Shown: positions 59,966 to 63,571 of the stretch, one piece after another
Numbering within the stretch: the first letter of the stretch is position 1
Layout of the letters: each line of letters begins with the position of its first letter
Assembly (NCBI GenBank): GCA_021323635.1
Contig: JAJPKQ010000036.1
Span: 1-64,000, forward strand
Length of the DNA: 64,000 nucleotides
Origin: a bacterium
GTDB taxonomy: Bacteria; Actinomycetota; Thermoleophilia; Solirubrobacterales; Solirubrobacteraceae
Reading direction: 5' to 3'
The notes under the pieces: model-generated
Seen by the model: the letters and a program-made list of their open reading frames with translations, nothing else
Databases searched by the model: none
What the model was told of the DNA's origin: nothing
Position numbers and translations under genes: made by a program

Positions 59966-60895
59966 ATGCGCTCCCGCGCGCAGGTCATCGCGATATTCGG
60001 CCCGACCGCGATCGGCAAGACAGCCGTCGCGATCGCGTTTGCGGAGCTGCTGCGCTCCCGCGGGCAACGCCCGCTTGCAATCTCCGCCGACGCGCTGCAG
60101 CTGTATCGCGGCATCGAGATCCTGAGCGGCGCGCCCAGCGCGCAGGAGCGTGCACGTCTCGAGCACCGCTTGGTCTCCATCGCGCCGCTCGGCGAGCGCT
60201 TCTCGGCGGGTCGCTACAGCGCCCTCGCACACGCGAGCGTCGATGAGGCGCTTGCGGCCGGAATGGTGCCGATCGTGGTGGGCGGAACGGGCCTGTACCT
60301 TCGCGCTGCGCTTGCCGACCTGGACCTGCGCCCGCCGACGGACCCGCAGCTGCGCGCGCGCCTGCAGGCGCAGCTTGACGCCTGCGGCCCCGAGGCGCTG
60401 CACGGGCGGCTGGCGCGCCTTGCGCCCGATGCGGCCGCGCGCATCGACCGCCGCGACCGGCAGCGGATCGTCCGTGCGCTCGAGCTGATCGAAGCCGGGC
60501 GCAGACCTCCTGAGCCTGCCGCTCGCGAGGCCCCCGGCGCTCTATGGAGCGCGCAGATGCGCAGGCCGACGCTGCTGATCGGCCTGGTGACGCCCCTGCC
60601 CGAGCTCTACGCGCGGGTCCACGAGCGCGTCCGCACGATGCTCGCGCAGGGCGCGCGTGAGGAGGTGCTGCGCGCCGAGCAGGCAGGGGCCTCTGCGGCC
60701 GTGCGCAAGGCGATCGGCTACCGCGAGCTGCTTGCCGGCGACGAGCAGGCGATGGAGCTTGCCACTCGCCGCTATGCCCGTCGCCAGCTCACCTGGATGC
60801 GCAAGCTGGCCGGGGCGCGCCTGATCGATGTCACGGGTCGCCAGCCGGAGGTCGTTGCGCAGGAGATCGCAGCGATCTGGGAGCGCGGCGGCTGA
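59966..60895 (+). CDS. miaA: tRNA dimethylallyltransferase
   Basis: Adds the isopentenyl group to A37 of tRNA, the substrate of MiaB. P-loop IFGPTAIGKTAVA (about 8-20), AISADALQLYRG, VVGGTGLYLRAAL, and the tRNA-binding C-terminal part with VRKAIGYRELLAGD and ATRRYARRQLTWMRKL. 309 residues, normal. The usual DSxQ(V/I)Y is ISADALQLY here, so the first serine of that motif is shifted. Followed by dapF. Confidence 0.94.
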   Translation: MRSRAQVIAIFGPTAIGKTAVAIAFAELLRSRGQRPLAISADALQLYRGIEILSGAPSAQERARLEHRLVSIAPLGERFSAGRYSALAHASVDEALAAGMVPIVVGGTGLYLRAALADLDLRPPTDPQLRARLQAQLDACGPEALHGRLARLAPDAAARIDRRDRQRIVRALELIEAGRRPPEPAAREAPGALWSAQMRRPTLLIGLVTPLPELYARVHERVRTMLAQGAREEVLRAEQAGASAAVRKAIGYRELLAGDEQAMELATRRYARRQLTWMRKLAGARLIDVTGRQPEVVAQEIAAIWERGG

Positions 60896-60934: not shown

Positions 60935-61795
60935 ATGGACCTTGAGAAGTGGCAGGCGCTCGGCAACGACTACCTGATCATCGAGCGCTCCAAGCTTCCC
61001 TTCGAGCTCAGCCGTGCGCGCATCACCCGCCTCTGCGCGCCGCATTTCGGCCTCGGCGCCGACGGCATCCTGCTCGTGGAGCGACTGCAAGGGCAGGAGC
61101 CGCTTGCGGGCGCGCTGCGGATCTTCAACCCCGATGGCTCCGAGGCTGAGCTCTCGGGCAATGGCGCGCGCGAGGCCGCGCTGTACATGCACAAGCATGG
61201 CTGGGCGCCTGCGGAGCGCTTCGGGATCCAGACCGCGGCGGGCATCGTCTGCCCGGAGATCCTGCCCGAGGGCTTCTGCCGCATGGACATGGGCCAGGCC
61301 GCCGTCCGCTCGGCCGACTATCCGGACGCGCCCGCGGATGGGCGCGGGGAGGTCACGGTCGCCGGCAGGGCACTTGCCTTCCAGCATGTCTCGATCGGCA
61401 ACCCCCAGTGCGCGATCGCGCTCGAGAGCGAGGAGCTCCTGCAGGCGCTCGACCTTGCCGCGATCGGCCCGGCGATCGAAGCCGACCCGCGCTTCCCCAA
61501 CCGCACCAACGTCTCCTTCTACGTCGCGCGCTCGCCGCAGCAGATCAGGGCACGGATCTTCGAGCGGGGGGTGGGGGAGACGCTCTCCTCCGGAACCGGC
61601 GCCGCCGGTGCGGCCGTCGCGCACGCGCTCGCCAGCGGCGGCGGCGAGCGCACGGTGAAGGTGCTGCTCGATGGGGGAGAGCTGCTCGTGGAGGTCGCCG
61701 CCGACCTTCACGTCCACCAGCGCGGGTGGGCGTTGCCGGTGTATAAAGCGACACTTGCGCAGGAGCTCATCGACGAGCTTGCCGCGCTTGAGTGA
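60935..61795 (+). CDS. dapF: Diaminopimelate epimerase-like protein lacking both catalytic cysteines
   Basis: 286 residues with the two-domain DapF fold: WQALGNDYLIIE, FGLGADGILLVE, FNPDGSEAEL, GNPQCAI, ERGVGETL. Normal DapF uses two cysteines, in CGNGARC and in ACGTGA. Here the first reads LSGNGAREA (S74) and the second LSSGTGAAG (S219), so both acid/base cysteines are serine. It may be an epimerase of low or altered activity, or have another role. It is directly upstream of dapL, which supports a diaminopimelate context. Confidence 0.85.
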   Translation: MDLEKWQALGNDYLIIERSKLPFELSRARITRLCAPHFGLGADGILLVERLQGQEPLAGALRIFNPDGSEAELSGNGAREAALYMHKHGWAPAERFGIQTAAGIVCPEILPEGFCRMDMGQAAVRSADYPDAPADGRGEVTVAGRALAFQHVSIGNPQCAIALESEELLQALDLAAIGPAIEADPRFPNRTNVSFYVARSPQQIRARIFERGVGETLSSGTGAAGAAVAHALASGGGERTVKVLLDGGELLVEVAADLHVHQRGWALPVYKATLAQELIDELAALE

Positions 61796-61809: not shown

Positions 61810-62973
61810 ATGACCCCAAGCAAGCGTCTGCAGCGGATCCCCCCCTATCTGTTCGCTGAGCTGGAGCGCAAGATCGCAGCCAAGCGCGCGGCGGGCGTCG
61901 ACGTGATCAGCCTCGGCATCGGCGATCCGGATCGCCCGACGCCCGCCCTGATCGTCGAGGCCGGCCAGGAAGCGCTCGCTGACCCGAGCACCCATCGCTA
62001 TCCCACCAATCGCGGGCGCCAAGAGCTCAGGGTGGCGGTTGCCGACTACTACATGCGACGCTTCGACGTGACGCTTGATCCCGATACCGAGGTGATCCCG
62101 GCGATCGGGGCAAAGGAGGCGATCTTCAATCTCAACCTTGCCTTCCTGGACCCCAGCGACGTCGCGCTGGCCGCAGACCCCGGCTATCCGGTCTACACCG
62201 CCGGCCCGCTGCTGGTCGGGGCCGAGGCGATCGTGATGCCGCTGGTGCCCGAGCTCGGCTTTGTGCCGGATCTCGACGCGATCGGCGCAGAGCTGGCCGG
62301 CAAGGCGAAGCTGATGTACCTCAACTACCCGAACAACCCCACGGCGGCGACCGCGCCGGAGGGCTTCTTCGAGCGCGTGGTCGCCTTTGCGCACGAGCAC
62401 CAGATCCTGGTGGTGCACGACAACTCCTACTCCGAGATCACCTTCGACGGCTACCGCGCTCCGTCGTTCCTCGCGACCCCCGGCGCCAAGGACGTCGGCA
62501 TCGAGGTCTACTCGCTCTCCAAGGGCTACAACATGACCGGCTGGCGCTGCGCGGCTCTCGTCGGAAACGCCCAAGCGCTCGAGGCCTACTGGCGATTGAA
62601 GACCAACATCGACTCCGGGCTCTTCGAGGCGATCCAGCTGGCCGGGGTGGCTGCGCTCTCGGCCGACGCAGATGCCGAGGTCGAGTCGATGCGCCTCCTC
62701 TACGAGCGCCGGCGCGATCTGGTCTGCGATGCGCTGCGCAAGATCGGCGTCGCCGTCACCAAGCCGCGTGCGACGATCTACGTGTGGGCGCCGGTGCCCA
62801 AGGGCTTTGCAAGCTCGATCGACTTCTGCGAGCACGTGCTCGAGCGCGCGGCGGTAGTGGTCTCTCCCGGCGGCGCCTACGGGCCCTCCGGCGAGGGCTG
62901 GTTCCGCATCTCGCTGACCACCCCCGAGGAGCGGCTCGAGGAGGCGATCGAGCGGCTGGGGGCGCTTGCCTAG
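61810..62973 (+). CDS. dapL: LL-diaminopimelate aminotransferase
   Basis: PLP class I aminotransferase converting tetrahydrodipicolinate directly to LL-DAP. RIPPYLFAELERKIAAKRA at the start, IPAIGAKEAIFNL, YLNYPNNPTAATAP, and the PLP lysine in SLSKGYNMTGWR (about K238) match the DapL group closely. 387 residues. AAGGAG (61800-61805) before ATG 61810 fixes the start. With dapA, dapB and dapF in this window it completes the short aminotransferase route; dapD/dapC/dapE are not seen. Confidence 0.92.
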   Translation: MTPSKRLQRIPPYLFAELERKIAAKRAAGVDVISLGIGDPDRPTPALIVEAGQEALADPSTHRYPTNRGRQELRVAVADYYMRRFDVTLDPDTEVIPAIGAKEAIFNLNLAFLDPSDVALAADPGYPVYTAGPLLVGAEAIVMPLVPELGFVPDLDAIGAELAGKAKLMYLNYPNNPTAATAPEGFFERVVAFAHEHQILVVHDNSYSEITFDGYRAPSFLATPGAKDVGIEVYSLSKGYNMTGWRCAALVGNAQALEAYWRLKTNIDSGLFEAIQLAGVAALSADADAEVESMRLLYERRRDLVCDALRKIGVAVTKPRATIYVWAPVPKGFASSIDFCEHVLERAAVVVSPGGAYGPSGEGWFRISLTTPEERLEEAIERLGALA

Positions 62974-62990
62974 CGCCCGCCCGTGCGCGC

Positions 62991-63571
62991 TCAGGCCACC
63001 AGCAGCGCCGCGCCAACCGGGATGTGGCGATAGAGCCGGGAGACGGCGGCGGGCAGCATCCTGACGCAGCCGTGTAAGGGGTTGCCGGTATCGCCTGCGG
63101 CGCGAAGTAAGGGCCGTGAATGCCGACGACGCCGCCTCCCGGCCATTCTGAGAGCGTCGAGTAGTCGGCGGTGCCCAAGGCATCCGGCCAGTAGCCGGAG
63201 GAGGGATCGGCGATCGGGAGCTTCTCGCGGATCCAGAAGCGACCGGCCGGCGTGGGCGTCTGGGGGGCGCCGACCCCGACCGGCGCCCGAAAGCGCAGGT
63301 GCCCGTAGCGGTATGCCGAGAGGGTGCGCGCCGCGCGATTGACCGCCAGCTGCCAGTGCGTCACCTGCAAGCGCCCGAGCGCTGCACGCGGAACCCACCC
63401 CGTGCGCCCATCCGGGCGCCCCGGTACGCGGATGCGCATCCACCTGCGCCCGCCGCGCCAGATGCGCTCGGCAAGCCGCATGTAGACCTCCGGGAAGCCG
63501 TCTTCTGTGAAGAGATGAAGCGTCGTCAGCCGCCGGCCGTCCGGGGTGGGGGAGGAGCGTACGAAAGCCAC
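62991..63571 (-). pseudogene. L,D-transpeptidase (YkuD), frameshifted and truncated
   Basis: Peptidoglycan cross-linking enzyme family. From GTG 63571 the frame gives an SH3-like part (FVRSSPTPDGRRLTTL to TGWVPRAALG) and a YkuD domain up to GGGVVGIHGPYFAPQAIP. It then changes to nonsense. The catalytic motif HGCVRMLPAAVSRLYRHIPVG, ending ALLVA and TGA at 62991, continues in another frame. One missing base near 63086-63089 (minus strand ACCGGCAAC) would restore it. The upstream frame is open to 63652 (GGYRTLVLSNERTLTVWAHP) without a start codon or signal peptide. Confidence 0.7.

Follow-up and report, generated by a model that had tools for sequence, protein, structure and literature searches.

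Serine at both catalytic cysteine positions of the DapF homologue of Solirubrobacterales, a putative diaminopimelate epimerase

Diaminopimelate (DAP) epimerase, DapF, is the textbook case of 1,1-proton transfer by two cysteines, and its single Cys-to-Ser mutants have been used as nearly dead enzymes for crystallography. The 64,000-nucleotide stretch analysed here (positions 1 to 64,000 of contig JAJPKQ010000036.1, assembly GCA_021323635.1, from a member of the family Solirubrobacteraceae, order Solirubrobacterales; hereafter the window) carries a dapF homologue on the + strand (60935..61795, 286 aa) with serine at both of these positions, raising the question of whether, and by what chemistry, such a protein could still provide meso-DAP. 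An earlier note on this DNA, made from the letters alone, had offered three options, namely another mechanism, another substrate or a cell wall built with LL-DAP, of which the first is best supported by our analysis and the other two are disfavoured. We propose, with a probability of roughly 0.6, that the window DapF acts as the working DAP epimerase of the organism, with serines at helix N-termini replacing the thiols, because an epimerase is needed, a sole candidate was found, and everything apart from the acid/base set is intact. With an order that lives with meso-DAP and whose sole DapF lacks both cysteines, what was a chemical rule becomes open to testing, and the two thiols, so far taken to be essential, may not be needed after all. 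We found no earlier account of a naturally occurring Ser/Ser DapF in the literature searched, which lacks most subscription papers.

The assignment to the DapF family is clear from profile and structure searches. The translated product scores 180.8 bits against TIGR00652, the DapF equivalog model (cut-off 114.65, residues 4-275), and 132.7 bits against PF01678 (cut-off 34.7), with both domains matched. PF01678 was the sole Pfam match at E values up to 0.001, with no match to the proline racemase family (PF05544), and a phmmer search of PDB with the window DapF returned DapF structures alone, plus the related O-ureidoserine racemase. A bifunctional DapF/glutamate racemase (NF038284) was rejected, with 40.7 bits against a cut-off of 350. 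The two catalytic-cysteine motifs, however, read EAELSGNGAREAA and RGVGETLSSGTGAAGA. Ser74 (codon TCG, 61154..61156, + strand) occupies the first position, where CGNG reads SGNG, and Ser219 (codon TCC, 61589..61591, + strand) the second, where CGTG reads SGTG, and in the phmmer alignments both fall on the catalytic cysteines of the solved DapFs 9mro and 5ha4. The second Cys of CGNGxRC, which is not an acid/base cysteine, is Glu80. Four catalytic residues have been listed for Haemophilus influenzae DapF, Cys73, His159, Glu208 and Cys217 (PMC3581254), and their counterparts in the window DapF are Ser74, Gln158, Glu210 and Ser219, so that three of the four are replaced. Gln158 (codon CAG, 61406..61408, + strand), placed by alignment, takes the position of His159, with GNPH reading GNPQ. 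Only the catalytic, amine-binding Glu210 (codon at 61562..61564, + strand), equivalent to Glu208 in H. influenzae and Glu212 in Corynebacterium glutamicum, is kept. The earlier note was right about both serines, and its interval, 61154-61591, runs exactly from the Ser74 codon to the Ser219 codon, but it overlooked the change from His to Gln158. Judged by its sequence, the protein is thus an orthologue in the DapF family that lacks the residues by which the Cys/Cys mechanism is defined, and the family model names such proteins DapF without flagging the absent catalytic residues.

These replacements are shared by the whole order. An order set of 111 distinct Solirubrobacterales sequences was assembled from the window, 30 loci from order genomes and 80 named loci, and alignment with these relatives, as the earlier note had proposed, gave Ser at both catalytic positions in 111 of 111, including Conexibacter arvalis DSM 23288 and Svornostia abyssi. 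Gln likewise stands at the His position of GNPH in every sequence of the order, whereas His is present in all 143 other aligned sequences. Ser219 is encoded by TCN in 99 sequences of the order and by AGY in 12, and Ser74 by TCN in 110 and by AGY in one; as a switch between TCN and AGY needs two base changes, it is serine as such that is maintained. Sequencing error, which the earlier note had considered unlikely for two sites, is excluded by this order-wide conservation, as is a pseudogene, and the strong conservation argues that the gene is not decaying.

Apart from the acid/base set, the window protein resembles the canonical enzymes (EC 5.1.1.7; H. influenzae 1gqz/1bwz, E. coli 4ijz and C. 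glutamicum 5h2g/5m47) in family model, fold, DAP-binding residues, catalytic Glu and dapL context. An AlphaFold2 model (pLDDT 96.8, 56 sequences in the input) has the two alpha/beta domain DapF-like fold, in agreement with the earlier claim of an intact fold, and its best match in PDB is E. coli DapF 4ijz (Z 34.9); the top matches are the DapFs of E. coli, P. aeruginosa and A. baumannii (Z 34-35), and DapFs overall lie at Z 29-35. Both serines are located at helix N-termini in the model, each one residue before a helix (75-87 for Ser74 and 220-233 for Ser219), as described for the catalytic residues of the DapF-like fold (PMC11602996). The laboratory mutants C73S (2q9h) and C217S (2q9j) of the H. 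influenzae enzyme share this fold (Z about 33) and carry Ser at one of the two positions, unlike the natural protein, in which both positions are Ser and fixed over the whole order. Alanine mutants of N15, N74, N85, N159, N194, E212, R213 and T223 in C. glutamicum DapF are almost inactive (PMC5296763); the window DapF has every one of their counterparts (N11, N65, N76, N156, N192, E210, R211 and T221), and conservation of these residues in the order exceeds 97%.

The conserved site bears directly on a change of substrate or reaction, in the manner of the Ser/Thr-type dehydratases of the proline racemase superfamily. In that superfamily, replacement of a Cys goes together with trans-3-hydroxyproline dehydratase activity in several clusters (PMC4113996), and the fold of the Ser/Thr dehydratase B9K4G4 is shared with the window DapF, although the likeness is one of fold rather than of sequence, the dehydratase structure 4k7g matching the window model at Z 20.7 with about 12% identity. 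The eight DAP-site residues have been kept and the gene stays between miaA and dapL, which argues against another substrate, nor was another DapF found that could provide meso-DAP instead. We therefore regard such a change as quite improbable.

Several findings indicate that these bacteria need meso-DAP. It is given as the diagnostic peptidoglycan diamino acid, at position 3, of all Solirubrobacterales in the genome paper on Conexibacter woesei (PMC3035278), and Solirubrobacter deserti contains it as well (PMC10722151). We found lysA in 41 of 41 genomes tested and MurE with a DNPR motif in the genome of the window and 15 relatives. LysA decarboxylates, and needs, meso-DAP, and DNPR is the motif of DAP-adding MurE enzymes. 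A wall containing LL-DAP, with DapF dead or vestigial, would be in keeping with the direct synthesis of LL-DAP by DapL and with the LL-DAP walls of some Actinomycetota; given the meso-DAP reported for the order, the presence of LysA in every genome tested, the DAP-type MurE motif, and a dapF that is strongly conserved with no sign of decay, this explanation is already largely refuted for the order, and we consider it the least probable of all.

Other routes to meso-DAP were searched for in the same genomes. A single PF01678 protein is encoded in the window's own genome (97.5% complete), and a single DapF gene in each of 61 order genomes, where extra rows are pieces of split genes, as well as in Conexibacter arvalis, two other Conexibacter isolates and Svornostia abyssi. 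No second canonical dapF, the finding that the earlier note had set against its own proposal, was detected in the own genome, the 61 order genomes or these four named isolates. A bypass through meso-DAP dehydrogenase was rejected, the enzyme being found in none of the 61 order genomes and none of 30 other Ser-type genomes (0 of 91), with positive controls in two reference genomes. Expansion of alanine racemase was also rejected, with at most one Alr gene per genome, and so was expansion of the Asp/Glu racemases, most genomes showing a single clear match or none. The genome of the window has one Asp/Glu racemase match (G000:C31:17354-17932). Several near-complete order genomes (G002, G011, G037, G040 and G045) gave no Asp/Glu racemase hit at E 0.001, which raises the question of where their D-glutamate comes from.

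Beyond the order, the same replacement recurs among related bacteria. Within the class, families f5, f6, f8 and f10 and most of f9 are Cys/Cys, and family f7 (20 sequences) is Ser/Ser but retains the His. Genus g46 of family f9 is Ser/Cys (5 sequences: L136, L181, L183, L184 and L185); its DapF branches among Cys/Cys relatives and represents a recent single replacement in nature, one that would suit before-and-after biochemistry. The phylum sample gave 47 Cys/Cys, 14 Ser/Cys, 12 Cys/Ser and 5 Ser/Ser sequences (the last from families f44 and f47), counts that are not to be read as frequencies because some of the sequences were picked from among the highest scores in the list and others from among the lowest. 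Ser was the sole replacement of Cys in every sampled lineage, and never Ala, Gly or Thr. On a tree of 176 sequences, built quickly with the trait columns left out and containing some long branches, the Ser/Ser state has to arise three times independently, a number that stays the same when well-supported branches alone are counted; at the single sites, 5 changes are required for position 74 and 6 for position 219. As far as these sequences allow, the Cys-to-Ser swap has thus arisen several times in related bacteria, and the natural graded series of Cys/Cys, Ser/Cys, Cys/Ser and Ser/Ser lends itself to comparative work on mechanism. In seven genomes of the phylum family f24 (G178, G205, G237, G276, G306, G325 and G335), the DapF model TIGR00652 is matched twice, which is seen in hardly any other genome.

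The repeated origin of Ser/Ser also bears on whether meso-DAP might be made by a non-homologous racemase or epimerase, with the Ser/Ser DapF kept for, e.g., a binding or regulatory role. Cys-to-Ser mutants made in the laboratory have hardly any activity, and a role of this kind has a parallel in E. coli DapF, which stimulates RppH non-enzymatically (PMC4227774). Such an explanation would require at least three replacements, each of which kept the DAP-binding residues, the fold and the gene position, and neither a DAP dehydrogenase nor a second DapF nor more than one Alr gene was found in a search that covered some, not all, racemase families. We hold it to be unlikely, if less so than a change of substrate.

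If the window DapF is the working epimerase, LL-DAP made by DapL, its expected substrate, would be converted to meso-DAP, supplying both peptidoglycan and lysine. The two Ser hydroxyls would stand in for the thiols in proton transfer, possibly aided by helix dipoles and by the exclusion of water upon closure. There is partial precedent for such a site. The hydroxyproline 2-epimerase B9JQV3, which has a DapF-like fold, epimerises with Ser93/Cys236 (PMC4113996); a natural Ser replaces a catalytic Cys there with retention of epimerase activity, although, unlike in the window DapF, only one Cys is replaced and the substrate is different. Similarly, the Asp/Glu racemase EcL-DER has a natural Cys/Thr pair and retains racemisation in one direction (PMC8142540), sharing a hydroxyl residue in place of one thiol but differing in family and in its one remaining Cys. 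A Ser/Ser epimerase would be one step beyond both enzymes.

Several points weigh against a working Ser/Ser epimerase. Cys-to-Ser point mutants of PddB, and of M. tuberculosis DapF as cited in the same paper, show <0.1% activity (PMC8225329), and the turnover of HisR is greatly reduced by the same kind of mutation (PMC11602996); the earlier note, too, had called Cys-to-Ser variants of DapF very poor catalysts in general. The pKa of serine makes it a poor base. No compensating residue common to all three Ser/Ser lineages emerged from a column comparison of Ser and Cys groups together with independent tree pairs. The DAP isomer of the window's genus, which seems to be uncultured, has to be taken from cultured members of the order, the epimerase role of the Ser/Ser DapF is inferred wholly by comparison, and on sequence grounds a non-homologous epimerase of another family could act in its place. 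The losses in mutants, however, do not settle the matter for serine-adapted lineages, because those mutations were made in enzymes tuned to thiols.

The weakness of serine as a base raises the related possibility that the window DapF is a DAP epimerase in which the serines only hold the substrate and a water or hydroxide, or in which another residue transfers the proton. The additional loss of the catalytic His in the order (Gln158) and the ordered waters in some closed DapF structures (PMC12039745) would be compatible with this, as would the remodelling of the site suggested by Glu194 of the TNVEF motif, which is Ser in Solirubrobacterales and Gln in family f7. Against it, both sites are occupied by Ser without exception in the order, Ser is the only residue to have replaced Cys in the sampled lineages, and the column comparison turned up no Asp, Glu, His, Lys or Tyr gained by every Ser/Ser lineage. 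We take this to be the least improbable of the alternatives, though still unlikely. Our preferred reading remains a working epimerase with serines in place of the thiols; that the serines are themselves the acid/base groups, instead of positioning a water, is more weakly inferred. Tentatively, and at somewhat less than even odds, we suggest that a natural thiol-free amino-acid epimerase inverting a carbon with a pKa of about 29 through a Ser/Ser pair evolved at least three times in Actinomycetota, probably via Ser/Cys or Cys/Ser intermediates, in which case the thiol/thiolate pair, regarded as essential to racemases that work without a cofactor, would be one solution among others. Thiol-directed DapF inhibitors such as aziridino-DAP should spare Ser/Ser enzymes, which bears on inhibitor design.

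The Ser/Ser proteins also differ in methionine content, which is 0.72-1.00% in the three Ser/Ser lineages compared with 2.35-2.93% in Cys/Cys DapFs. The latter often carry Met at positions 61, 73 and 154 (window numbering), where the Ser/Ser lineages carry other residues, and this loss goes partly with the trait, the independent pairs being too few for a test. GC content differs between the groups, and Cys/Ser sequences of similar GC still have 2.7% Met; among the gene neighbours in Ser/Ser lineages, low Met is partly seen in DapL and not clearly in MiaA. A disulfide formed by the two catalytic cysteines of C. glutamicum DapF inactivates that enzyme (PMC5296763), so that a sulfur-poor site could, speculatively, escape oxidation, and an oxidation-proof active site of this kind might be the reason for the low Met. 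The continued conservation of Cys34 and Cys159 in the DapF of the order speaks against this idea.

The dapF gene lies between miaA (59966..60895, + strand; TIGR00174, 167.2 bits), its conserved upstream neighbour, and dapL, encoding LL-diaminopimelate aminotransferase (61810..62973, + strand; NF006756, 545.6 bits, cut-off 507), which is directly downstream, as the earlier note had placed it, and adjoins dapF in most relatives. All three genes are adjacent in 59 of 80 Solirubrobacterales loci, some of which are on short contigs, and the same order is found in 33 of 40 loci from Cys/Cys or Ser/Cys families of the class, indicating that the Ser/Ser and Cys-containing DapFs are positional orthologues. 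Next to dapL, on the - strand (62990-63571), there is a gene that, by sequence likeness, would encode a YkuD-like L,D-transpeptidase. It apparently has a frameshift immediately ahead of the catalytic motif, with GIHGPYFAPQA in one frame and a continuation as GNPLHGCVRMLPAAVSRLYRHIPVG to a stop in another, which could reflect an assembly error or a broken gene.
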